Below are positions 1,305 through 64,000 of a stretch of 64,000 bases of DNA, one piece after another. The stretch comes from Achromobacter ruhlandii (GTDB lineage: Bacteria; Pseudomonadota; Gammaproteobacteria; Burkholderiales; Burkholderiaceae_B). A model generated the notes under the pieces. The model made no database searches, was not told the DNA's origin, and was given only the letters and a program-made list of their open reading frames with translations. Where the stretch lies: NCBI RefSeq assembly GCF_902859695.1, contig NZ_CADIJL010000001.1, forward strand, positions 372,001 through 436,000, written 5' to 3'. Positions within the stretch are counted from its first letter, which is position 1, and each line of letters starts with the position of its first letter. Made by a program: the position numbers and the translations under genes.

Positions 1305-3362
1305 ATGACTCAACCTACCAGCGTCCCGGCAGAGGTCACGCTACCGGAACTGACATTCCGCGGCGTGCTGCTGGGCGCGGTCATCACCATTATCTTCACC
1401 GCCTCCAACGTGTTCCTGGGGCTCAAGGTCGGCCTGACCTTCTCGTCGGCGATCCCGGCGGCGGTCATTTCGATGTCGGTGTTGCGCCTGTTCAAGGACG
1501 CCAACATCCTCGAGAACAACATGGTGCAGACGCAGGCCTCGGCGGCCGGCACGCTGTCGGCCATCATCTTCATCCTGCCCGCCCTGGTCATGATGGGCCA
1601 CTGGCAGGGCTTTCCGTTCTGGCAGACCCTGGGCATCTGCGCGGCCGGCGGCATGCTGGGCGTGATGTTCACGATTCCGCTGCGCCACGTGATGGTGGTG
1701 CAGAGCGACCTGCCGTACCCGGAGGGCGTGGCGGCCGCCGAGATCCTGCGGGTGGGCAGCGCCGAGCGCGCCCAGGACGCGGCCGAGGATTCCGCTGGGG
1801 CGCCGGCCAGGCCAGCGGCCACCGGCATGGGCGACATCGTCAGCGGCGGCGTGGTGGCGGCGGCAGTCAGCTTCGCGGCCAGCGGCCTGCGGGTGTTGGG
1901 CGACGGCGTCAGCGGCTGGTTTTCGCTGGGCGGCGCGGTGTTCCGGCTGCCGATGGGTTTTTCGCTGGCGCTGCTGGGCGCGGGTTACCTGATCGGCATC
2001 GTGGCGGGCCTGGCCATGCTGACGGGGCTGGTGATCTCGTGGGGCATCGCGGTGCCGATCCTGACTTCGATGGCCCAGATTCCCGCGGACATGTCGCTGG
2101 CGAAATTCGCCACCGGGCTGTGGTCGTCGCAGGTGCGGTTCATTGGAGCAGGCGTCATCGGCGTGGGCGCCATCTGGACGCTGGCGACGCTTTTCATGCC
2201 GATGGCGCGTGGCGTCAAGGCCTCGTTCTCGGCGTTGACGCGCACCGGCGCGGCGCGCGCGGGCAAGGCGCCGCGCACCGAGCGCGACCTGTCGGCGGGC
2301 TGGATCTCGGTCGTCACGCTGGTGCTGGTGGCGGTGCTGGTGATCACGTTCCAGGTGTTCCTGGCGGACGCGCCGCTGACGGCCGCCGCGGTCTGGAAAC
2401 TGGTGGCCTACGCTGTGCTGTTTGCTTTCGTCTTCGGTTTCCTGGTGGCGGCGGCCTGCGGTTACATGGCGGGTCTGGTGGGCACCTCGACCAGCCCGAT
2501 CTCGGGCGTGGGCATCGTTGCCATCGTGCTGGTGTCGCTGTTGCTGCTGGCGCTGGGCGGCGACCTGCTGGCGGTGCAGAACGGCGTGCAGATGACCATC
2601 GCGCTGGCGATCTTCAGCACGTCGGCGGTGGTGGCGGTGGCCTCGATCTCCAATGACAATCTGCAGGATCTGAAGACCGGCTGGTTGGTCGGCGCGACCC
2701 CGTGGCGCCAGCAGGTGGCGCTATTGATCGGTTGCGTCCTTGGCGCGGCGGTGATCTCGCCGGTGCTGGACCTGCTGTACAACGCCTACGGCTTCGCCGA
2801 TGCGATGCCGCGCGCAGGCATGGACCCGTCCCAGGCGTTGTCGGCGCCGCAGGCCACGCTGATGCTGGCGATCGCGCGCGGCATCTTCACGCATCAACTG
2901 AACTGGACCATGATCCTGATCGGCATGGCGGTGGGCGTGGGCCTGATCGTGGTGGACGAGATCCTCAAGCGCACCTGCAAGGTCGCCCGCATCCCGGTGC
3001 TGGCGGTGGGCATCGGCATCTACCTGCCGCCGACCGTGGCGGCGCCGATCGTGGTCGGCGCGCTGCTGGCCTGGCTGCTGGAGCGCGCGCTGCGTCGCCG
3101 CGCCGCGGCCGCCGGCAAGGACTATGAATCGTTCGCCGACGCCGCCAACCGGCGCGGCGTGCTGATCGCCTCGGGCCTGATCGTGGGCGAGAGCCTGGTG
3201 GGCGTGGTGATGGCCGCCATCATCGGCGCCGCCGGCACCGATGCGCCGCTGGCGATCGCGGGCGAGGAATTCGCGCGCACCGCCTCGTTCCTGGGGCTGG
3301 CGGTGTTCGCGCTGGTGGCGGTGCTGTTCTGGCGCCGCGTGACGCGGCTGGCGCAGCCATAG
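1305..3362 (+). CDS. OPT-family oligopeptide transporter
   Basis: This 685-residue inner-membrane protein belongs to the OPT family, whose members take up small peptides or metal-chelate compounds. It is almost wholly hydrophobic, with about 14-16 membrane helices. The family-typical N-terminal half contains ASNVFLGLKVGLTFSSAIPA, NNMVQTQASAAGT and SDLPYPEGVAAAEILRVG. Length matches bacterial OPT proteins of roughly 600-700 residues. The ATG follows AAAGGGAG by 7 bases. The gene stands alone and ends at a strong palindromic terminator. The substrate cannot be told from sequence. The neighbouring M20 hydrolase is convergent and not co-transcribed. Confidence 0.9.
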   Translation: MTQPTSVPAEVTLPELTFRGVLLGAVITIIFTASNVFLGLKVGLTFSSAIPAAVISMSVLRLFKDANILENNMVQTQASAAGTLSAIIFILPALVMMGHWQGFPFWQTLGICAAGGMLGVMFTIPLRHVMVVQSDLPYPEGVAAAEILRVGSAERAQDAAEDSAGAPARPAATGMGDIVSGGVVAAAVSFAASGLRVLGDGVSGWFSLGGAVFRLPMGFSLALLGAGYLIGIVAGLAMLTGLVISWGIAVPILTSMAQIPADMSLAKFATGLWSSQVRFIGAGVIGVGAIWTLATLFMPMARGVKASFSALTRTGAARAGKAPRTERDLSAGWISVVTLVLVAVLVITFQVFLADAPLTAAAVWKLVAYAVLFAFVFGFLVAAACGYMAGLVGTSTSPISGVGIVAIVLVSLLLLALGGDLLAVQNGVQMTIALAIFSTSAVVAVASISNDNLQDLKTGWLVGATPWRQQVALLIGCVLGAAVISPVLDLLYNAYGFADAMPRAGMDPSQALSAPQATLMLAIARGIFTHQLNWTMILIGMAVGVGLIVVDEILKRTCKVARIPVLAVGIGIYLPPTVAAPIVVGALLAWLLERALRRRAAAAGKDYESFADAANRRGVLIASGLIVGESLVGVVMAAIIGAAGTDAPLAIAGEEFARTASFLGLAVFALVAVLFWRRVTRLAQP

Positions 3363-3390
3363 GCCAGGCGTTGCGCCACGCACGGATCGA

Positions 3391-3420
3391 AAGGGCATGA
3401 CGCGCGTCATGCCCTTTTTT
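3391..3420. terminator. Bidirectional terminator between OPT gene and M20 hydrolase
   Basis: Positions 3391-3416 form a perfect 26-base palindrome (AAGGGCATGACGC and its complement) followed by a T run to 3420. It lies between the convergent OPT and M20 genes. The last T overlaps the M20 stop codon, and the A-rich other side lets it serve both strands. Confidence 0.85.
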
Positions 3421-4652
3421 CATGCCGGCCGCAGCAGGTCGGCCAGGGTTCGGGCGATGACCTTGGTGGCCCGCCGCAGGTCTTCCAGCACCACGCGTTC
3501 GTCGTTGCGCTTGGCGTGCGACTCCAGCACGGTGCGCGGGCCGGCGCCGTAGATCACGCCGGGAATGCCGGCCTCGGCGTACAGGCGCACGTCGGTGTAG
3601 AGCGGCGTGCCCATGGCGGGGATCGGCTCGCCGAACAGGTCCTGGCCATGCTTGCGGATGGCGTCGACCAGCGGCTGGTTGCCGGGCAGCGGCCGCATGG
3701 CGTTGGCCAGCAGCAGGCGCTTGATCTCGACGCGCAGGCCGGGCGTGGCGGCCGCGCCTTCTTCGATGATGCGGCGGATGTCGGCCTCGACCTCGGCCGC
3801 GTTCTCTTCCGGGATCATGCGGCGATCCAGCTTGAACACCACCTTGCCGGGCACCACGTTGGTGTTGGTGCCGCCTTCGATGCGGCCGATGTTCAGGTAG
3901 GGATGGCTGATGCCCTCGACCCGCGAAGTGATCTCGCGATAGCGCGCGTTCTGCGCGTACAGCGCGTTCATGATCGCGACCGCGCCCTGCAGCGCATCCA
4001 CGCCGGTGGCCGGAATGGCGGCGTGCGCCATCTTGCCGTGCACCGTGACCTCCATTTGCAGGCAGCCATTGTGGGCCGTCACGACTTCATAGCTGAAGCC
4101 GGCCGCGATCAGCAGGTCGGGTTTCGTCAGGCCCTGGCGCAGCAGCCAGCCGGGACCGAGCAGGCCGCCGAATTCCTCGTCGTAGGTGAAGTGCAGTTCG
4201 ACCGCGCCATGGCTCGGACGCGCCACGGCTTCCAGCGCCCGCAATGCGAAGGTGAAGCTGGCGAAGTCGCTCTTGCTGACCGCGGCGGCGCGCCCGTAGA
4301 GGCAGCCGTCCACGATCTCGGCGCCATACGGATCGTGCTCCCAGCCGTCGCCCGGCGGCACCACGTCGCCGTGGGCGTTGAGGGCGATGCGCCGGCCGCC
4401 GGCGCCGTATTCGCGGCGCACGATCAGGTTGGTGATGGACTCCATGCCGTAGGCGCGCACTTCGTCGGCGGGCACGGGATGGGACTCGGCCGGCAGGCCG
4501 AAACCTTGCAGCAGTTCCGCGGTGCGGACGGCGTGCGGGGCGTTGTTGCCCGGCGGCGTGTCGGTCGGCACGCGCACCAGTTCCTGCAGGAAGCGCACTT
4601 CTTCATCGAAGTGGGCGTCCACCCAGGCGTCGAGTCGGGCGTAGTCGGTCAT
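3420..4652 (-). CDS. M20-family amidohydrolase/peptidase with altered metal site
   Basis: This 410-residue protein has the ArgE/DapE/CPG2 fold: a catalytic domain interrupted by a lid domain near residues 195-310. Visible motifs are LNAHGDVVPPG (His94, Asp96), TYDEEFGG (Glu159, Glu160) and a C-terminal ESHAKRNDER (His379). The usual bridging-Asp motif GRGAxDxKG reads GRAAAVSKSD, with Val125 at the Asp position. The third acidic ligand, expected near residue 186, is also not evident. It begins 3 bases after the stop of the allantoate amidohydrolase fusion, so it is the third gene of the puuE operon. It probably acts on a purine-derived ureido or amido compound, but this is inference. Confidence 0.8.
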   Translation of the reverse strand: MTDYARLDAWVDAHFDEEVRFLQELVRVPTDTPPGNNAPHAVRTAELLQGFGLPAESHPVPADEVRAYGMESITNLIVRREYGAGGRRIALNAHGDVVPPGDGWEHDPYGAEIVDGCLYGRAAAVSKSDFASFTFALRALEAVARPSHGAVELHFTYDEEFGGLLGPGWLLRQGLTKPDLLIAAGFSYEVVTAHNGCLQMEVTVHGKMAHAAIPATGVDALQGAVAIMNALYAQNARYREITSRVEGISHPYLNIGRIEGGTNTNVVPGKVVFKLDRRMIPEENAAEVEADIRRIIEEGAAATPGLRVEIKRLLLANAMRPLPGNQPLVDAIRKHGQDLFGEPIPAMGTPLYTDVRLYAEAGIPGVIYGAGPRTVLESHAKRNDERVVLEDLRRATKVIARTLADLLRPA

Positions 4653-56011: not shown

Positions 56012-57001
56012 CTGACGCGCCCGCGGCTTCAATCCCTCGCGCGCCGCCGCCTGCTGCAGGCGGCGGCGCTGGGCGCGCTCATCCCGCTGGCGGCCTGTGC
56101 GCCGCCCATCTCGCTGAATGCGACTTTCCTGCAACTGTGGCTCAGCCACCGGGACCTGACGCGTGACGAATGGCGCCGCCGCCTCGCCGCTTGCCGGCGG
56201 CTGGGCTGCCGCGAGCTGTTCCTGCAGTGGGTCGGCCTGGAAGGCGGCCGGCCGGATGACTGGATGGCGCCGCCATCGATGCTGGACATCATCTTCGAGG
56301 AAGCCGACCACAACGGCCTGGGTGTGCACGTGGGCCTGCCCTATGACCAGCGCTGGTGGAACGTGCTGGCCGCGCCCGACGACACGGCGCTGGCGTCCTA
56401 CCTGGACCATACCCGCGACCGTGGCGTGGCCTACATGCGCACCGCCGCCTGGCCCAAGCGCCGCAATTTCCGCGGCTGGTACGTGCCGTACGAGCTGGAG
56501 CAATACAACTGGGCCCGGCCCGAGCGCCAGGCGCTGCTGGTGCCGTGGCTGGACGCTTTCACCCGCGCCTCGCTGGCCAGTTGTCATCGCATTCCGTCCA
56601 TTTCGACCTACCACAGCCGGCTTGCCGGCGACGGCTCGTTGATGCAGCTATGGTCGCGGGTGCTGGACGCGGTGCGCATCCACCCCATGATCCAGGACGG
56701 CGTGGGCGTGGCGGGCCTGGCCAACTACCGGGCGCTGGAGCCGCTGCACGACATGCTGCTCAAGCGCCGCGCCTCGTTCGACCTGATCATGGAGCTGTTC
56801 GAGGAACTGCCCTCGGGCAGCACGGACGGCACCACGTTCAAGGCGCGTTCCGCCGATTTCGGCCGGGTCAAGCAGCAGTGGGATGTGGCGCGCGGCTATG
56901 GCGCCAAGCGCATCGTGGCATTCACGATGGACCCGTGGGTGATCGGCGATACGCCCGAGGCCCGCGCGCTCAGGGATGCCTGGATGGCGGCGCGCGTCTG
57001 A
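56012..57001 (+). CDS. DUF4434-like lipoprotein, probable non-ATG start
   Basis: This protein of about 329 residues resembles TIM-barrel DUF4434 proteins (LFLQWVGLEGGRPDDWMAPP, MLDIIFEEADHNGLGVHVGL, RGVAYMRTAAWPKRRNFRGW). A signal with RRR, a hydrophobic run and lipobox LAAC makes it an exported lipoprotein. No ATG, GTG or TTG lies in frame between the YidB stop and the signal sequence. A CTG at 56012, 8 bases after AAGGA, is the best start and reads as M-T-R-P-R. An ATT at 56003 is the other option. A link to polysaccharide handling is suggested by the fold, not shown. Confidence 0.75.
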   Translation: MTRPRLQSLARRRLLQAAALGALIPLAACAPPISLNATFLQLWLSHRDLTRDEWRRRLAACRRLGCRELFLQWVGLEGGRPDDWMAPPSMLDIIFEEADHNGLGVHVGLPYDQRWWNVLAAPDDTALASYLDHTRDRGVAYMRTAAWPKRRNFRGWYVPYELEQYNWARPERQALLVPWLDAFTRASLASCHRIPSISTYHSRLAGDGSLMQLWSRVLDAVRIHPMIQDGVGVAGLANYRALEPLHDMLLKRRASFDLIMELFEELPSGSTDGTTFKARSADFGRVKQQWDVARGYGAKRIVAFTMDPWVIGDTPEARALRDAWMAARV

Positions 57002-57013
57002 GCCCGCGGGCGC

Positions 57014-58144
57014 TCAGAGGAAGCTGCGGCCGATGATTTCCCGCATGATTTCGCTGGTGCCGCCGAAGATGCGCAGCGCGCGCGCATCGACCCAGGCGCG
57101 GCCGATGCCGTATTCGGCCATGTAGCCATAGCCGCCGTACAGCTGCAGCAGGTCGTCCAGCACCGCGCCCTGCATTTCGGTGGCGTTGAGCTTGGCGATG
57201 GCGGCGCTGGTGGCGTCGAGTTCACCCGCCATGTGGCGCGCCAGGCAATCGTCCAGGAACACCCGCAGCATGGTGCTCTGGGCGCGCGCGCTGGCCAGCT
57301 TGAAGCGCGAGTTCTGGTAGTCGAACACCCGGCGGCCGAATACCTTGCGGTTGCGGGTGTATTCGGCGGCCTCGTCCAGCATGCCCTCGAGCGAGGCCCC
57401 GGCGCGCAGTGCGATCGCCAGGCGTTCGCGCGCGAGTTCCTGCGTCAGGTATTCGAAAGCGCCATTTTCCTGGCCCAGCAGGCAATCGGCGGGCAGGCGC
57501 ACGTCATCGAAGTACAGCTCGCAGGTGTCCTGGCAGTGCTGGCCGATCTTGTTCAAGGCCGCGCCCTTGGTGTAGCCGGGCAGGTTTTCCTCGACGCAGA
57601 ACAGCGACAGGCCGCGCGCGCCGAGGTCGGGGTCGGTGCTGGCCAGCACGATCGCCAGGCCGGCGTTGACGCCGTTGGTGATGAAGGTCTTCTGGCCGTT
57701 CAGGATGTAGTGGTCGCCCTCACGGCGGGCACGCGTGCGCACCGCCTTCAGGTCGCTGCCCGCGTCGGGTTCGGTCAGGGCGATGGCGCCGATGATGTCG
57801 CCGCGTGTCATGGCGGGCAGCCAGCGTTCCTTTTGCGCGGTCGTGCCGAAGGCGTTCAGATAGGGCGCGACCATGTCGGAATGGATCGAGAAGCCGATGC
57901 CCAGGAAATTGGCGCGCGCCAGTTCCTCGATCACCACGACGGCATGGCCGAAGTCGCCGCCGAGCCCGTAGGGCTCGGGCAGGGCGCAGTTGAGCAGGCC
58001 TTCCTCGCCGGCGCGGCGCCACAGCGCGCGCGGCACGATGCCGGCCTTTTCCCACTCGGCGTAGTGTGGCGCGATCTCCTCGGCGACGAAGCGCCGCACC
58101 TGGTCGCGAAAGAGTTCGTGGTCGTCCCGGAATACGCGGCGCAT
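57014..58144 (-). CDS. Acyl-CoA dehydrogenase family protein
   Basis: This 376-residue flavoprotein has the standard fold with FAD/substrate motifs ALTEPDAGSDLKAVRTRA and LYGGYGYMAEYGIGRAWVD. The C-terminal position that holds the catalytic Glu in medium-chain enzymes is Gly (FGGTSEIMREI). Glu240 in ELARERLAIA matches the base position of long-chain and isovaleryl types. It begins 9 bases after the stop of the AlgF-like gene, so it is the last gene of the ligase/carrier/MBOAT operon. It may act on an ordinary acyl-CoA, or on the carrier-bound acid made by this operon. Confidence 0.9.
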   Translation of the reverse strand: MRRVFRDDHELFRDQVRRFVAEEIAPHYAEWEKAGIVPRALWRRAGEEGLLNCALPEPYGLGGDFGHAVVVIEELARANFLGIGFSIHSDMVAPYLNAFGTTAQKERWLPAMTRGDIIGAIALTEPDAGSDLKAVRTRARREGDHYILNGQKTFITNGVNAGLAIVLASTDPDLGARGLSLFCVEENLPGYTKGAALNKIGQHCQDTCELYFDDVRLPADCLLGQENGAFEYLTQELARERLAIALRAGASLEGMLDEAAEYTRNRKVFGRRVFDYQNSRFKLASARAQSTMLRVFLDDCLARHMAGELDATSAAIAKLNATEMQGAVLDDLLQLYGGYGYMAEYGIGRAWVDARALRIFGGTSEIMREIIGRSFL

Positions 58145-58153
58145 GCGGCCTCC

Positions 58154-58834
58154 TTACTTGCTATAGGGGTCGGTGGCGCTGGTCTGGCCGTGCAGCGTGG
58201 GCGCGGTGGCGCTGCCGGTGAGGAACAGGCTGTAGTGGTCGCCAGGCTGCAGGGCCGGCAGCGCCAGCGAGGGCGACAGCACCGTGCCGCAGCCGGCCGC
58301 CAGCGTGGCGCTGACCGGGTTGATGGCCCGCGCCGCCGAGGCGCCCGGTTTGATGTCCTGGAACAGCACGGGCCCGGTCGGGCTGACTTCGAGCCTGGCG
58401 CCGGGGCAAGCGGCCGCCAGGTTGTAGAAACGCAGTTCGGCCTTGAGCGCGTCCTGCGCGCCGTTGCTGTCGTCGATCGCCACATAGGTCACGTTGACGC
58501 CGTCGCGGCGCACCACCAGCGAAGTGAACGTATCCGGCTTGACCTGCAGGCTGGCGGCCGGCTTGCCGTCGATCAGCAGGTTGAACGGCTGGTTGCCCTT
58601 GACGATGGCGTAGGTGCTGGCGGGCTGGGTCGGGCTGATCTCCTGCGACGGGCCGTTGGCGATCTGCACGCGCACGGGGCCGGTTTCGGGATTGATGACG
58701 CGCACGAACGACGAGCCCGCCGGAGGGCGGGCGGCATACAGTTGGGCGAGCACGCCTTCGGCCTGGGTGGCGCCAGCGGCGGTGGCCAATGCCAGCGCCA
58801 ATGCCATGGCGGGGAAAGGGATGCGACGGGTCAT
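58154..58834 (-). CDS. AlgF-like periplasmic protein
   Basis: This 226-residue exported protein has a signal peptide (ALALALATAAGATQA) and the AlgF pattern: LAQLYAARPPAGSSFVRVIN at the mature N-terminus and FYNLAAACPGARLEVSPTGP, then RAINPVSATLAAG. AlgF is a periplasmic part of the alginate O-acetylation complex with AlgI, AlgJ and AlgX. Its ATG overlaps the ligase stop (ATGA), so it belongs to this operon. No alginate synthesis gene is in the window. Confidence 0.85.
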   Translation of the reverse strand: MTRRIPFPAMALALALATAAGATQAEGVLAQLYAARPPAGSSFVRVINPETGPVRVQIANGPSQEISPTQPASTYAIVKGNQPFNLLIDGKPAASLQVKPDTFTSLVVRRDGVNVTYVAIDDSNGAQDALKAELRFYNLAAACPGARLEVSPTGPVLFQDIKPGASAARAINPVSATLAAGCGTVLSPSLALPALQPGDHYSLFLTGSATAPTLHGQTSATDPYSK

Positions 58835-60306
58835 GCTTGCGGCTCCGGTTTCTTGCTGAGGCGGGCGTCGAGGTACATGCGCTCGAGCTGTTTGCGGTCC
58901 GCCTTGTCGGTGCTGGTCGTCGGGAAGCGATGGCAGGCTATCAGCTCGGACGGGATCATGTAGGGGGGCAGCCGGCGGCCCAGTACGGCCTTCCAGTCGG
59001 CCAGCGTCGCGGGCAGGGGCTGCAGGCCCTCGGGGCCGGCTTCGGCCGGTTCGACGAATCCTATGAGACGGATGATAGCGCCATCGGGCCGCCGCAGCGC
59101 GACGGTGGCCCCGGCGCGCGCGCCCGGCAGGGCGGCGACGGCGGCGTCGATCTCGGCCAGTTCGATGCGGTAGCCGTGCAGCTTGATCTGATCGTCGATG
59201 CGGCCGCGGAACGTCACCAGCCCGCGCGCGTCGATGTCGCCGAGGTCGCCGCTGCGGTACCCGCGCTTGCCGTTGCGCGTGAACATGCGCGAGGCATTCA
59301 GGTCAGGACGGTTGAGGTAACCGCGCATGACGTGGTCGCCGGCGATGCTGATCTCGCCGTTCTCGATGAAGACCTCGGCATACGGCTTGGCGCGGCCGAT
59401 GGGGAAGGGGTTGGGCGCCTCGGCGCGCAGGGCCCGGTCGATCTCGACCCAGGTGGTGGAGCAGGTCGCCTCGGTGGGGCCGTACGAATTGATGATGCGC
59501 ACATCGGGAAAGCGCTGCCATAGCTCCTCGGCCAGCGTCGGCGTGAGCGACTCGGCGCCGAACACGAAGACGCGCAGCCGCGGCAGATGGGCGTGGTCGA
59601 AGTCCGGGTTGAACAGCTGCTGGCGCACGAACGACGGGGTCGAGGCCCAGACATTGATGTGCGTGTCGGCCAGATATTGCACGAAGCGGTCGCGCTGGGC
59701 GATGGTCTCGCGCGGACACAGGACGCAGGCGCCCCCCAGTTCCAGCGCGCCGACCCAGTTGAACAGCGAGAAGTCGAAGCTGAACAGCATCTGGTCCATG
59801 AATGCGGGCGCCGCGCCCAGGTCCAGGCAGTCGCGGATCCAGCCGGCGAAGAGGCTGACGCTTTCGCGTCCGATCTGCACGCCCTTTGGATCGCCCGTGC
59901 TGCCGGAGGTGAACATGATGTAGGCCAGGCCGGCCTCGGCCAGCGGCGCGGGGCTGGCGCAGCCGGCGGCGAAGGTGCGGGCCTGGGCGTCATAGCGAAG
60001 GCCGGCGCGCACCAGTTCGCCGATGCGGGCGATGCGTTCGGGCGGGTTGATGACGTCGACCGGCACGAAAGGCACCCGCAACCGCAGGCAGCCCAGGATC
60101 GCCACCAGGAAGGCCGCTTCCTTGTGGCCGGAAATCACCAATGGCACGCCGGCGGTGACGCCGGCGCGCAAGGCTTCCTGCTCCCAGGCCAGCGTGGCGG
60201 CCCGCAGCGCGCCCCAGGTCAGCGCGCCCTGCGCGTCGACCACCGCGATGGCATCGGCGCCGACGGCCGTGTCGGCGAAATCGTAGGCATTGAAATCGAA
60301 ACGCAT
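58831..60306 (-). CDS. DltA-like amino acid/acyl adenylating ligase
   Basis: This 491-residue ANL-family enzyme loads an acid onto a carrier protein via an adenylate. Motifs are TSGSTGDPKG (133-142), SYGPTEA (274-280), SGDL (Asp354), FRGRIDDQIKLHGYRIEL and the C-terminal lysine in TDKADRK (Lys468). Asp178 in SFDFSLF sits where adenylation domains bind the substrate alpha-amine, so an amino acid is likely. In Bacillus DltA a Cys follows in FLFCGE; here the stretch reads VFVFGAES, with Gly250 there. It lies 22 bases downstream of the carrier protein gene. Confidence 0.88.
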   Translation of the reverse strand: MRFDFNAYDFADTAVGADAIAVVDAQGALTWGALRAATLAWEQEALRAGVTAGVPLVISGHKEAAFLVAILGCLRLRVPFVPVDVINPPERIARIGELVRAGLRYDAQARTFAAGCASPAPLAEAGLAYIMFTSGSTGDPKGVQIGRESVSLFAGWIRDCLDLGAAPAFMDQMLFSFDFSLFNWVGALELGGACVLCPRETIAQRDRFVQYLADTHINVWASTPSFVRQQLFNPDFDHAHLPRLRVFVFGAESLTPTLAEELWQRFPDVRIINSYGPTEATCSTTWVEIDRALRAEAPNPFPIGRAKPYAEVFIENGEISIAGDHVMRGYLNRPDLNASRMFTRNGKRGYRSGDLGDIDARGLVTFRGRIDDQIKLHGYRIELAEIDAAVAALPGARAGATVALRRPDGAIIRLIGFVEPAEAGPEGLQPLPATLADWKAVLGRRLPPYMIPSELIACHRFPTTSTDKADRKQLERMYLDARLSKKPEPQA

Positions 60307-60328
60307 GGTGCTGCCCCCAGGAGAATCG

Positions 60329-60568
60329 TCAGGCGCGGGCGCGCTCCGCGATGAACGTGGCCAGCGTGTGCACCGATTCCAGGTGCACGTCGATCTCGGT
60401 CGGCGGGATCTTGCAGCCGAACTGGCGTTCCACCGCCAGCGCCACGTCCACGGCGGCCAGCGAGTCCACCAGGCCGGAATCGATCAGCAGGGTGTCGGGA
60501 TCGACTTTGGTGAGGATGATGCCTTCGATGAGGTCGGCCACCTTGGTTTCGATTTCTTTGATGTCCAT
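60329..60568 (-). CDS. Acyl/peptidyl carrier protein (DltC-like)
   Basis: This 79-residue carrier protein has the phosphopantetheine attachment Ser36 in GLVDSLAAVDVAL. Acidic helices and length fit DltC-type carriers. Its gene lies between the MBOAT gene (25 bases) and the ligase gene, so it is the likely substrate shuttle between the two. Confidence 0.9.
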   Translation of the reverse strand: MDIKEIETKVADLIEGIILTKVDPDTLLIDSGLVDSLAAVDVALAVERQFGCKIPPTEIDVHLESVHTLATFIAERARA

Positions 60569-60593
60569 CGCGTACTCCGCGACCGCGTCGCGG

Positions 60594-62174
60594 TCAGAAT
60601 TGGAAATAGAGGAACCGGGTTTCCTTGTGCAGGTTAACCAGGCAGAAGAACAGCAGCGCCAGCATCACGCCCAGCCAGGCCAGGTTGGGGCGCCAGCGCA
60701 TCCAGGGCGAGGGCGCTTCCTGGGGCTTGAACAGCGCGGGCGAGTAACGGCCCAGGATCTGGTGCGCGTTCGGCGCGAACCAGGCGATGCCCAGCAGCAC
60801 CACAGCATAGATCAACTGCAGGTGATGGCCGACCAGCACGCGCCAGGCATCGCCCCAGGCCAGGCCGCTGACGTGGGTGGCCAGGTCCAGCGTTTCCACG
60901 CCGCGCAGCCCGATCATGCCCTGCATCAGCAGCATGGCGTCGCCGACGCCGTGGGCGCGGAAGAAGGCCTGCGCCACCAGCACCGCCACAAAGGTCAGCA
61001 GCACGCAGGCGGCACGCTTGACCACGTTCAGGTTGCGCGCGGCGGCGGGCTTGCGGCCGACCACGAAGATGCGCCAGGCGTGGTTCACCGACAGGTACAT
61101 GGCATGGAGCAGGCCGAACACCAGGAACTGGAAACCGGCGCCGTGCCACACGCCCGCCAGCGCCATCGTGAACAGCGTCGGGGTGACGATGCTGGCCAGG
61201 AAGCCGCCCGCCGTGGCCACGCCCTGGGCGCCGACCGGCAGGTTGCGGTCGGTGCGCCACTTCGAGACGGCCATGGCCACCGGATAGTAGAGATAGGCGG
61301 TCAGGTAGCGCGTCAGCGTCATATGCCAGCGGGCCCAGAACTCGATGATGCTGCCGGCCTTGTAGGGCGAGTTGAAGTTCAGCGGGAAGCGGATGCCGAA
61401 CATCTTGGCCAGGCCCAGCGCCATGTCCGAATAGCCGGAGAAGTCGAAATACAGCTGCAAGGCGTAGCACAGGCTGGCGCCCCACGAGCCCCAGAACTGC
61501 AACTCGCCCGGCGCGGCGAAACCGGCGTCGGCGTAGGGCGCGATACCGTCGGCCAGCAGCACCTTCTTGGCCAGTCCGATCACGAACAGCATCCCGCCCA
61601 CCGACAGGTTCTCGGCCTTGAAGCGGTAATTCTCGGGTTGCGCGAACTGCGGCATCATCTCCTTGTGATGCAGAATCGGGCCGGCGATCAGATGCGGGAA
61701 GAAGGTCACGAACAACACGTAGCTGAGCAGGCTGCGTTCCTTGACCACGCCGGCGCGGCAATCCAGCAGATAGCCGATCTGCGTGAAGGTGAAGAACGAA
61801 ATGCCCAGCGGCAGGATGATCGCGTCCATGGTCGAACTGGTCATGCCCAGGTCGGTCAGGAAATTGAGCAGCGTGGCAAAGTACTTGTAGTGGAACAGCA
61901 GCGCCAGGTCGGCGCCCACGCCCAGGCCCGTGATCAGCCCCTGCAGCTTCGGCCGCGCCGCCGTGTGCAGGATCAGCAGGCTGACCAGGAAGTTGAAGGC
62001 GATCGAGCCCGCCAGCAGCACCACGAATTGCGGATTCCACCAGCCGTAGAACACGAAGGACGTCAGGCACAGCCACAGCGCCGCCAGCCGCAGGTTGAAG
62101 CGGCCCGCGCCGTAGTACACGGCCAGCGTGACGGGCAGGAAGATCAGCAGGAACAGATAAGAGTTGAATAGCAT
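60594..62174 (-). CDS. MBOAT-family acyltransferase (DltB/AlgI-like)
   Basis: This 526-residue polytopic protein has about 11-12 helices and the MBOAT active-site motif GVWHGAGFQFLVFGLLHA (His344), with FWARWHMTLTRYL (His284) upstream. LYFDFSGYSDMALGLAKMFG is common to AlgI and DltB. MBOATs of this kind move an acyl group from a cytoplasmic donor to a periplasmic partner. It starts 6 bases after the AlgX-like gene stop. The name AlgI would over-specify the donor, because a ligase-carrier pair is present here. Confidence 0.92.
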   Translation of the reverse strand: MLFNSYLFLLIFLPVTLAVYYGAGRFNLRLAALWLCLTSFVFYGWWNPQFVVLLAGSIAFNFLVSLLILHTAARPKLQGLITGLGVGADLALLFHYKYFATLLNFLTDLGMTSSTMDAIILPLGISFFTFTQIGYLLDCRAGVVKERSLLSYVLFVTFFPHLIAGPILHHKEMMPQFAQPENYRFKAENLSVGGMLFVIGLAKKVLLADGIAPYADAGFAAPGELQFWGSWGASLCYALQLYFDFSGYSDMALGLAKMFGIRFPLNFNSPYKAGSIIEFWARWHMTLTRYLTAYLYYPVAMAVSKWRTDRNLPVGAQGVATAGGFLASIVTPTLFTMALAGVWHGAGFQFLVFGLLHAMYLSVNHAWRIFVVGRKPAAARNLNVVKRAACVLLTFVAVLVAQAFFRAHGVGDAMLLMQGMIGLRGVETLDLATHVSGLAWGDAWRVLVGHHLQLIYAVVLLGIAWFAPNAHQILGRYSPALFKPQEAPSPWMRWRPNLAWLGVMLALLFFCLVNLHKETRFLYFQF

Positions 62175-62180
62175 CTCGGG

Positions 62181-63281
62181 TCAGGGCAGTCGGGCCAGCA
62201 CGGATTTTTCGTCGTCGGTCAGCGGCAGCGACAGCGCCATTTCCGAAAACTCCCAGATCACCAGCTTCAGGCTCTTGGGCCATTGCTCGCGCTGCTTGAG
62301 CGCCACCAGCAAAGCCCCGGAAAACTGCCCGCCATCCAGGCTCAGGTTCCAGACCTCGCGGCCCAGCCCCATGCCCAGCCGCTCGGCGAAATTGCTGCGA
62401 CGGCCGTTGGAGCTGCCGGCCAGCAACACTTCCACCGGTGGCGTGTCGTCGAGCAGCCCGCCGCCGCGCACCGGTTCGATCTTCTGCGGCGCGGCCAGGT
62501 CCAGCTCGGGACGCCAGCCAGGCCGCGCCTGTTCCAGCCCGGCCAGCACGATCAGGTCGCCCATGCGCGGCCGCGGCGCGCCCGCCGGATCTTCCTTGAA
62601 GGCCTGGGCGCCCGCGCCGCCCAGCAGCGGCAGCGCGGCTTGCGCCACGCGCGCGGCGGCGGCCTGCGCGCCGGTGGCGTTCATGTGCACGTCTGTGCGG
62701 AAGTAGCGCGGCGCCTCGGCCTGCGCCAGGGCATCGCGCAGATCGACGAACGGCACGCCCTGCGCGCGCAGCGCGGCCTGCCAGTCGTCCAGCGTGCGTC
62801 GCATCGGCAACGATACGGTCTGGCCGCACAGGTGATCGGCCTCGATGCGAGATTTGTCGGGCACGGCGACCACCAGCACCTGCACCTGACGCTGGCGCAG
62901 TTGGTCGACCCAGTGGCGCATCAGGCGCAGGCGTTCGTTGAATACATGCACACCGGGTTGCGGGCGCAGGCCATCACGATAGAACAGCCATTGCGGGCAG
63001 CCCATCGCGACCTGGTCGCCCAGGTCACCGAGCACACGGTAGCGGATCGCCGCGTTCCAGGTGTTGACCGCGCCCTGCGCCGGCAGGCGCAGCGACTGGT
63101 TCAACGCGGTCCCCGCGGTGCCGTTCATCCAGGCGGCGGGCGCGACATCGGCGGCGCTCAGCCTGGCCTGCGCCAGGCACCAGGCGCCCCAGCCCAGGCC
63201 GAGCGCCAGCAGCACGCCGATCACGATCGCGTTGCGCCGATGGCCCGATTCGGGCGGCGCGGTCTTCTCCGCTTGCGCCAC
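62181..63281 (-). CDS. AlgX/AlgJ-like SGNH acyltransferase, second copy
   Basis: This 366-residue protein has one N-terminal membrane anchor (residues 19-38) and a periplasmic SGNH-like domain. The catalytic Asp/His pair is in RTDVHMNATG (Asp197, His199) and the Ser in LLAGSSNGRRSNF (Ser290 or 291). AlgX/AlgJ proteins transfer acetyl groups to alginate. A GTG at 63281 is the start, 4 bases after the stop of the upstream homologue. The motif around Ser differs from the GHS of the other copy, so the two may have different steps or acceptors. Confidence 0.85.
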   Translation of the reverse strand: MAQAEKTAPPESGHRRNAIVIGVLLALGLGWGAWCLAQARLSAADVAPAAWMNGTAGTALNQSLRLPAQGAVNTWNAAIRYRVLGDLGDQVAMGCPQWLFYRDGLRPQPGVHVFNERLRLMRHWVDQLRQRQVQVLVVAVPDKSRIEADHLCGQTVSLPMRRTLDDWQAALRAQGVPFVDLRDALAQAEAPRYFRTDVHMNATGAQAAAARVAQAALPLLGGAGAQAFKEDPAGAPRPRMGDLIVLAGLEQARPGWRPELDLAAPQKIEPVRGGGLLDDTPPVEVLLAGSSNGRRSNFAERLGMGLGREVWNLSLDGGQFSGALLVALKQREQWPKSLKLVIWEFSEMALSLPLTDDEKSVLARLP

Positions 63282-63285
63282 GGCG

Positions 63286-64000
63286 TTATTGCCCCACCGC
63301 CGCCTTCATGCGGCCGCGCCAGGCGTCGGCGGTCATGATGGAGGCGTTGTCCCACAACCCCTTGGCGTCAGGACCCTGCGCATAGGTGGGCTCGAACATC
63401 TGCCATACCAGCACCTGCGGCTTGTTCTGCTTGAAGGCGGGCGATTCCAGGTACTCCAGCAGCATGATCCAGTGGCCGACGTTGCCCGGTTTCCAGTTCA
63501 CTGAAACGGGCCGGTCCAGCACGTTGGACAGTTTCTGCGGAAAGCCGAAGTACGGCTGCACCATACTGTGGCCGGTCACGTGCACGGGGGCGGGCGCGTC
63601 GTCGATCAGGCTCTGGTTGTCGGCCTGGCGGCGCACGGTGAAGGTCTCGCGCCCGGCCTGCTTGCGCTGGTCGGGCGTCAAGAACAGCTCGGCCAGGTCG
63701 CCATAGCGGCGTTCATTGACCACGCTGCCCAGCGCCATGCCGGTGCCCGGCTTGCCGGCCAGCGTCTTCACGTCCTGCTTGATGCGCTGGGCCAGGGCCT
63801 CGGCGGTGGCGTCGGCGGCGGCCTGGGTCCAGTGCTGGTCGGTGCGGTAGAACACGTCCTGGCCGCCATCCTTCAGGCGGCGCAGCACCGCCTCGTCGTC
63901 GATGGTGGAGATGCCGGCGGCCTTGAGCTTGTCCTGGATGGTCTGGTAGCGCTTCTTGACCTCGGCGCTCAGCGCCGTGCCGTCCGGCAGCTTGTCCTGG
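63286..64000 (-). CDS. AlgX/AlgJ-like SGNH acyltransferase, first copy (runs off right edge)
   Basis: The visible 238 residues hold the Asp/His motif FYRTDQHWTQAA and the Ser motif HVTGHSMVQPYFGFP, both typical of AlgJ/AlgX proteins. The chain continues to VWQMFEPTYAQGPDA and ends RMKAAVGQ. The N-terminus and any anchor lie beyond 64000. It is the most upstream visible gene of the operon, so the promoter is outside the window. Confidence 0.85.
   Translation of the reverse strand, partial: QDKLPDGTALSAEVKKRYQTIQDKLKAAGISTIDDEAVLRRLKDGGQDVFYRTDQHWTQAAADATAEALAQRIKQDVKTLAGKPGTGMALGSVVNERRYGDLAELFLTPDQRKQAGRETFTVRRQADNQSLIDDAPAPVHVTGHSMVQPYFGFPQKLSNVLDRPVSVNWKPGNVGHWIMLLEYLESPAFKQNKPQVLVWQMFEPTYAQGPDAKGLWDNASIMTADAWRGRMKAAVGQ

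Follow-up and report, generated by a model that had tools for sequence, protein, structure and literature searches.

Can a polysaccharide-acylating machine of the alginate type take its acyl group from a carrier protein, as Dlt systems do? The question is raised by seven minus-strand genes at the end of a 64,000-nucleotide stretch of Achromobacter ruhlandii DNA (assembly GCF_902859695.1, contig NZ_CADIJL010000001.1, positions 372,001 to 436,000; G000:C1:372001-436000), hereafter called the window. A sequence-only reading had proposed that the seven join Alg-type and Dlt-type parts, which described systems keep in two separate machine types, and that their donor is carrier-bound. From sequence comparisons we consider it likely that the block is the decoration half of a cyclic di-GMP (c-di-GMP)-controlled exopolysaccharide operon of the Nfr/NGR type, which would deliver an amino-acyl group, probably not D-alanine (D-Ala), from a carrier protein. 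The genes are as follows, with nfrA numbered on L003, the locus record that continues beyond the window.

57014 to 58144, minus strand: acyl-CoA-dehydrogenase-family (ACAD) flavoenzyme, nearest LCAD (PF00441 at 124 bits, PF02771, PF02770)
58154 to 58834, minus strand: AlgF-like periplasmic protein (PF11182 at 41.7 bits, cut-off 34.4)
58831 to 60306, minus strand: DltA-like AMP-forming ligase, pocket residues D F F A V G S C S (Pfam AMP-binding at 162 bits, cut-off 29.9)
60329 to 60568, minus strand: DltC-like carrier protein with DSL phosphopantetheine site (PF00550 at 34.4 bits, cut-off 20.8)
60594 to 62174, minus strand: membrane-bound O-acyltransferase (MBOAT) with fused C-terminal hexapeptide FLYFQF (F521, Y523, F526) and catalytic-type H344 (PF03062 at 77.7 bits, cut-off 27)
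62181 to 63281, minus strand: SGNH2, AlgX-domain protein with N-terminal membrane anchor (by eye) and AlgJ-like topology (PF16822; DVH and GSS motifs)
63286 to 64000, minus strand: SGNH1, soluble AlgX-like AlgX-domain protein, signal peptide by eye (PF16822; DQH and GHS motifs)
L003 8327 to 11056, minus strand: nfrA, with TPR and NfrA_C (96 bits, cut-off 25)

All seven open reading frames of the sequence-only reading are present and tightly packed, and each scores above its Pfam cut-off; the ALGX domain (PF16822, cut-off 26.5 bits) was found twice, at 225 bits in SGNH2 and 176 bits in SGNH1. The spacing is 9 nt between ACAD and AlgF, 22 nt between ligase and carrier, 25 nt between carrier and MBOAT, 6 nt between MBOAT and SGNH2 and 4 nt between SGNH2 and SGNH1, while the AlgF and ligase genes overlap by 4 nt. 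SGNH1 crosses the window edge, its start lying at about window position 64302 (L003 8303). A promoter and terminator scan gave 12 terminator-like sites with 9.3 expected, and no promoter-like site with 1.1 expected.

Beyond the edge L003 continues in the same orientation with nfrA (gap of about 23 nt), nfrB (overlap of 4 nt), a bcsB-like gene (gap of 18 nt) and wecB (overlap of 1 nt). The seven window genes thus close a unit of 11 genes that begins with wecB, the bcsB-like gene, nfrB and nfrA, all four outside the window. As these four precede it in the same orientation, the block reads as the latter portion of an exopolysaccharide operon of the Nfr/NGR type. NfrB scores 952 bits with NF012033 (cut-off 537) and 52 bits with an MshE-related c-di-GMP motif (cut-off 38); with the NfrB equivalog NF008411 it stays below the cut-off (579 versus 1170 bits). 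The 749-aa BcsB-like protein is a weak match (21.8 bits, cut-off 21). The unit therefore contains the combination that marks Nfr/NGR systems, a synthase with an MshE c-di-GMP domain, NfrA and WecB. In E. coli, NfrB, NfrA and WecB are required for the glycan that phage N4 exploits on the cell surface, and an N-acetylmannosamine (ManNAc) content has been proposed for it (PMC8669472, PMC8669469; these and the other papers cited are drawn on in part). By analogy, the target of the A. ruhlandii operon is probably a ManNAc-type polysaccharide. Lipopolysaccharide, which the sequence-only reading had also considered, is the less likely target because the nfr genes, lying just outside the window, begin the same unit.

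Within the genus, a window-type ligase with at least 84% identity occurs in 20 of 43 genomes, our own included, and NfrB in 33. We compared 19 of the 20 ligase loci (that of G028, on a 3.3-kb contig, was left out) together with all 14 NfrB loci that have no window-type ligase. Eleven genes in one order were found in all 18 fully covered ligase loci; the nineteenth, L038, is cut by a contig end and shows the stretch from MBOAT to ACAD. Such constancy argues that the cluster is not a product of chance and, together with the Pfam calls, bears out the claim that a single unit combines parts of the Alg and Dlt types. Judged from its sequences, the cluster very probably makes a polysaccharide of the bacterial surface and adds to it a group that a carrier protein delivers.

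The fused acyl-tyrosine motif and the source of the donor

In PatA, the MBOAT hands the acyl group to the tyrosine of its own C-terminal FXYXXF peptide; Dlt has this peptide as a separate protein, DltX, and draws on a carrier protein as donor; and in the non-Dlt MBOAT/SGNH pathways, according to the same 2025 paper, the peptide is fused to the MBOAT and there is no carrier, because acyl-CoA is evidently used (PMC12148441). The A. ruhlandii unit has the Alg/Wss-type set, an MBOAT with C-terminal FXYXXF motif, SGNH partners and AlgF. The carrier-free organization of that type was not found, as carrier and ligase genes lie inside the unit, and from these genes an acyl-CoA donor is improbable. FLYFQF is fused at the C-terminal end in 31/31 operon MBOAT rows (of which L043 and L102 probably represent a single contig), and across all 50 aligned homologues F521, Y523, F526 and H344 do not vary. 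A separate FXYXXF (DltX) peptide was not found in L003, where the MBOAT is the only frame ending in the motif, and DltD is not in the unit, the DltD matches of the genome being on contigs C11 and C10.

The Alg-type gene set and the fused motif are what plain O-acetylation would predict, with the MBOAT using acetyl-CoA as in alginate or peptidoglycan acetylation and the ligase and carrier serving another target. Published accounts also call the cluster acetyltransferase-like (PMC8669472, PMC8669469), and a Xylophilus MBOAT set shows no ligase on a short contig. We nevertheless judge this explanation improbable. Carrier and ligase stand directly behind the MBOAT in all 31 distinct loci with a window-type ligase, and the sole relative with an FkbH-domain protein instead (G017, see below) again has a carrier gene. 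Among sampled genomes of the family of G191, ten have the operon MBOAT, which is the only MBOAT found in nine (G619 has another), and DltD (PF04914) was found in none of the ten. In nine of them, likewise without DltD, ligase and carrier genes are present at the locus, and in eight of these nine no other MBOAT was found, which makes a hidden dlt system an unlikely owner of the pair there. Possibly the pair serves a transferase of another family. The best reading is a carrier-bound donor rather than acetyl-CoA, in keeping with the sequence-only reading.

The ligase pocket, the carrier and the dehydrogenase

The best NCBIfam model of the ligase is DltA, at 318 bits (cut-off 560). In the structural comparison LgrA came first, with several domains summed, and was rejected; DltA is the best single-domain chain (238 bits, versus 131 bits for prolyl ligases). 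Pocket residues were mapped by aligning the dra ligase of the same genome to B. cereus DltA and placing the window ligase on the dra ligase by shared motifs. On this mapping the window ligase keeps the equivalent of the amine-binding Asp197 and has Phe, Phe and Gly for Leu198, Met201 (numbered M200 in the papers) and Cys269. Gly replaces Cys269 in 32/32 operon-type ligase rows and Phe replaces Leu198 in 31/32 (L199 has Arg). The nine-residue code DFFAVGSCS is identical in 28 of the 32 rows, the deviants being L037 and L106 at position 299, L199 at the Leu198 position, and L111 at three positions with Gly retained. The dra ligases read DLYVLCTVA in 13/13 rows and keep the Cys. The roles of Asp197, Leu198 and Cys269 in DltA-like ligases have been described (PMC4176424, PMC11253843); Cys269 is a major determinant for D-Ala, and C269A loosens selectivity (PMC4176424, PMC8972799, PMC11253843). 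Because the Asp197 equivalent is kept and the Cys269 equivalent is Gly, the probable substrate is glycine or an L-amino acid, and not D-Ala. The amino acid itself was not assignable from the pocket code, which weakly resembles what we take to be Thr or Val codes.

This pocket makes it unlikely that the operon puts D-Ala on its polymer as Dlt and dra do elsewhere. DltA as best NCBIfam model, below its cut-off, speaks for D-alanylation, as do the ligases of a convergent module in Comamonadaceae-type loci (see below), which keep the Cys and a D-Ala-like pocket in 6/6 rows from five distinct loci. Set against these are the Gly and Phe replacements, the dra locus that the genome already has, and a dehydrogenase with no obvious role in D-Ala transfer.

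The sequence-only reading had named the Bordetella dra locus as the closest described relative. We made the comparison with the dra/dlt locus of the A. ruhlandii genome itself, which comprises a carrier (by eye), DltD (PF04914 at 201 bits), a 68-aa peptide ending in EFQYQQF, a DltB-like MBOAT and a DltA-like ligase. The EFQYQQF peptide, called DltX-like from its motif and position, occurs in all seven dra loci examined; the three dra MBOATs that were read end in SGRSPI and have no C-terminal motif. A second ligase, 53-55% identical to that of the window, is present in 42 of the 43 genus genomes and belongs to a dra/dlt locus wherever its locus was inspected. Away from dra, an 821-aa frame holds a further DltD-like match that is split into two pieces (G000:C10:173235-174155, plus strand). 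In the ligase tree, 17 operon-type ligases form one clade (support 100/100); the DltA branch is very long and the long branches of these 17 and of the Comamonadaceae-type ligases meet, so that the rooting and this join are unsafe. The window cluster was hence rejected as a dra variant: dra stands at a locus of its own and has a DltX-like peptide there, and the dra ligase is only 55% identical to that of the window, has a different pocket and falls outside the operon-type clade.

For the carrier no NCBIfam cut-off was reached (generic carrier 30.0 bits; DltC 29.2 bits, and 24.8 bits in the comparison with the DltC equivalog cut-off of 52.4). Its best solved relative is 6cxt_A (E 1.8e-7), and the same entry holds an ACAD-family chain, 6cxt_B, which gives a lead towards a carrier-ACAD pairing. 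The ACAD keeps Glu at the position of the ERL motif of LCAD, presumably the catalytic residue, and its paralogues in the same genome are 34-39% identical. It is present in 28 of the 31 distinct ligase loci and missing from Pandoraea L103, S. daejeonensis L107 and the metagenome-assembled genome (MAG) L111; it would therefore alter the product in most lineages and not be essential to the machine. The dehydrogenase, put forward earlier as a new element, is thus optional. An AT3-type acyltransferase gene (PF01757) lies at L103 15377-16519 (minus strand), near the Pandoraea operon.

Prodigiosin-type pathways use the same trio of ligase, carrier and dehydrogenase, and the ACAD matches the RedW and PigA models, which would fit a route in which proline is turned into a pyrrole-2-carboxyl group and put on the polymer. 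We hold this to be very improbable: the matches fall far below their cut-offs (RedW 205 versus 650 bits, PigA 188 versus 500), the ACAD is nearer LCAD (367 bits) than the prolyl-ACP dehydrogenase 4irn (164 bits), the ligase is nearer DltA than prolyl ligases, and three of the 31 loci have no dehydrogenase.

Bare loci, exchanged modules and distribution

Thirteen of the 14 genus NfrB loci that have no window-type ligase show no match to any decoration gene; the remaining one is that of G017 (L099). All 13 bare loci have bcsB-like, nfrB and nfrA matches, and 12 have wecB (not L086). The median identity of NfrA to that of the window is 86% in 17 cassette loci and 58% in the bare loci, the latter splitting into four at 77-79% and nine at 57-59%, while for NfrB the medians are 91% and 90%. 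NfrA is the exporter and the receptor of N4-type phages, and its divergence with cassette state fits an exporter adapted to a decorated polymer, although phage pressure or shared ancestry could also be its source. In L042, nfrA matches in two pieces.

At the G017 locus, AlgF, the two SGNH proteins and the MBOAT (42-60% identity) are joined to an FkbH-domain protein (TIGR01686 at 323 bits, cut-off 147) and a carrier (PF00550 at 23.3 bits, cut-off 20.8), with no ligase:

L099 5457 to 7594, minus strand: FkbH and carrier replacing the ligase, then MBOAT and an epimerase-like protein (TIGR03081 at 48.5 bits, below cut-off)

FkbH proteins load glyceryl groups on carriers. Five distinct Comamonadaceae-type loci have a second module, of ACAD-like enzyme, carrier and ligase, which is encoded on the other strand and runs convergent with AlgF: L200 (13297-16218, minus strand), L207, L208 (the same as L112), L109 and L110. 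Its ACAD-like enzyme is of another subfamily, with FadE16 as best NCBIfam model (107 bits in L200 and 126 bits in L208, cut-off 600). These arrangements indicate that donor modules are exchanged between relatives on a common chassis.

For other genera, the best 80 named loci were fetched by MBOAT alignment. NfrB adjoins the MBOAT in all of the 11 nearest of these (at least 61% identity), which come from Achromobacter, Pandoraea, Stenotrophomonas (2), Pseudomonas cremoricolorata, Cupriavidus, Xylophilus, Pseudacidovorax (3) and an Alcaligenaceae MAG; the decoration core recurs in the Pandoraea, Stenotrophomonas, Pseudomonas and Cupriavidus records. In the other 69 of the best 80 (L113-L181), some of them short, neither NfrB nor a ligase of at least 35% identity was found, and weak ligase matches (21-32%) occur in six (L120, L148, L152, L170, L174, L179). 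In L152, from an Accumulibacter MAG, weak carrier (31%), ligase (32%) and ACAD (34%) matches are adjacent at 1948-3788 (plus strand), about 5 kb from a distant MBOAT. At E <= 1e-150 the window MBOAT type is rare in overlapping genome samples, with 4/399 in the order, 10/349 in the family of G191 and 3/398 in the phylum.

Two further genes flank the operon. A convergent gene at 56012 to 57001 (plus strand; start codon uncertain) encodes a DUF4434 protein (PF14488 at 187 bits) with a twin-Arg-like signal and lipobox by eye; it adjoins the operon in 18 of 21 rows of relatives' loci compared, and its product could, at a guess, be a polysaccharide hydrolase. About 1.5 kb upstream of wecB lies a tmRNA gene (L003 17695-18083, minus strand), and tmRNA genes are common island-insertion sites.

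Proposed route and comparison with known systems

We infer every reaction, the polymer and the acyl group from sequence. By analogy with E. coli, WecB would give UDP-ManNAc, NfrB would polymerize it and NfrA would export the chain. The DltA-like ligase would activate an alpha-amino acid, probably not D-Ala but glycine or an L-amino acid, and load it on the carrier, where in most genomes the ACAD-family flavoenzyme would modify the bound group. The MBOAT would then transfer the group from the carrier to Tyr523 of its own hexapeptide, at the periplasmic face, and from there the two SGNH proteins of AlgX/AlgJ type, with the AlgF-like protein assisting, would put it on the polymer as an ester. A bolder version, in which the carrier holds not acetyl but an amino acid other than D-Ala, and the ACAD oxidizes it to a dehydroamino or 2-oxo acyl group that moves through the fused-motif MBOAT onto an NGR-type polymer, with ligase, FkbH glyceryl-type and D-Ala-type donor modules exchanged between species, is tentative and in its entirety rather doubtful.

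Several observations weigh against a carrier-delivered amino-acyl decoration of an Nfr/NGR polymer. For MBOATs with a fused motif, acetyl-CoA is the demonstrated or presumed donor. The Dlt-type proteins fall short of the equivalog scores (DltA 318 versus 560 bits, DltB 170 versus 375 bits, DltC 24.8 versus 52.4 bits), and the carrier fits a generic carrier model as well as it fits DltC. The 13 congeneric genomes with nfr genes and no decoration gene imply that decoration is dispensable for the polymer, and the NGR structure is unproven even in E. coli. In G589 (L205 5251-6659) the ligase matches in two overlapping frames, so that the gene or the assembly is perhaps broken. The Xylophilus locus (L108/L206) has the MBOAT set with no ligase or carrier seen; as its contig ends about 130 bp after AlgF, it gives no basis for judgement.

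The cluster has been seen before in part. For A. xylosoxidans, Sellner et al. (2021; PMC8669472) noted homologues of BcsB and of O-acetyltransferases alongside nfrA, nfrB and wecB, and an nfr cluster with acetyltransferase homologues is known from Simplicispira suum (PMC8669469); both loci very probably correspond to the present one or are close relatives of it. Neither main text uses the words "ligase" or "carrier protein". We found no publication joining ligase and carrier with an Alg-type MBOAT set in a search that left most subscription literature uncovered, which makes it weak evidence of absence.

With a carrier and a ligase beside a fused-motif MBOAT, the operon offers a testable exception to the rule of PMC12148441. 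Should the proposed route be confirmed, donor modules would be interchangeable in polymer-acylating machines, and groups other than acetyl would sit on some exopolysaccharides now taken to be acetylated. The operon is also relevant to biofilm chemistry, in Achromobacter and in related bacteria, and to how N4-like phages may recognize the cell surface.

Among known systems, AlmE reportedly works in a Gram-negative host with its own carrier and transferase. This glycyl ligase of lipid A glycylation resembles the A. ruhlandii system in that a DltA-like ligase feeds a surface modification, but target and transferase differ (PMC11253843). E. coli shares the NfrB-type synthase with c-di-GMP motif, the NfrA exporter, WecB and a periplasmic protein in the BcsB/YbcH position, yet its operon is nfrB, nfrA and ybcH without decoration genes (PMC8669469), whereas seven follow in A. 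ruhlandii. Dlt and dra share a DltA-like ligase, a DltC-like carrier, an MBOAT and an SGNH step, but they use DltD, a separate DltX-type peptide and D-Ala activation, where the window unit has a fused motif, no DltD and an altered pocket, with Gly for Cys269 in every operon-type row. O-acetylation of alginate (AlgIJFX) and cellulose (WssFGHI) shares the fused-motif MBOAT, the AlgX/AlgJ-type SGNH proteins and the AlgF-type protein; it uses an acetyl donor, with no ligase or carrier in the descriptions drawn on here, whereas the A. ruhlandii unit has genes for both.

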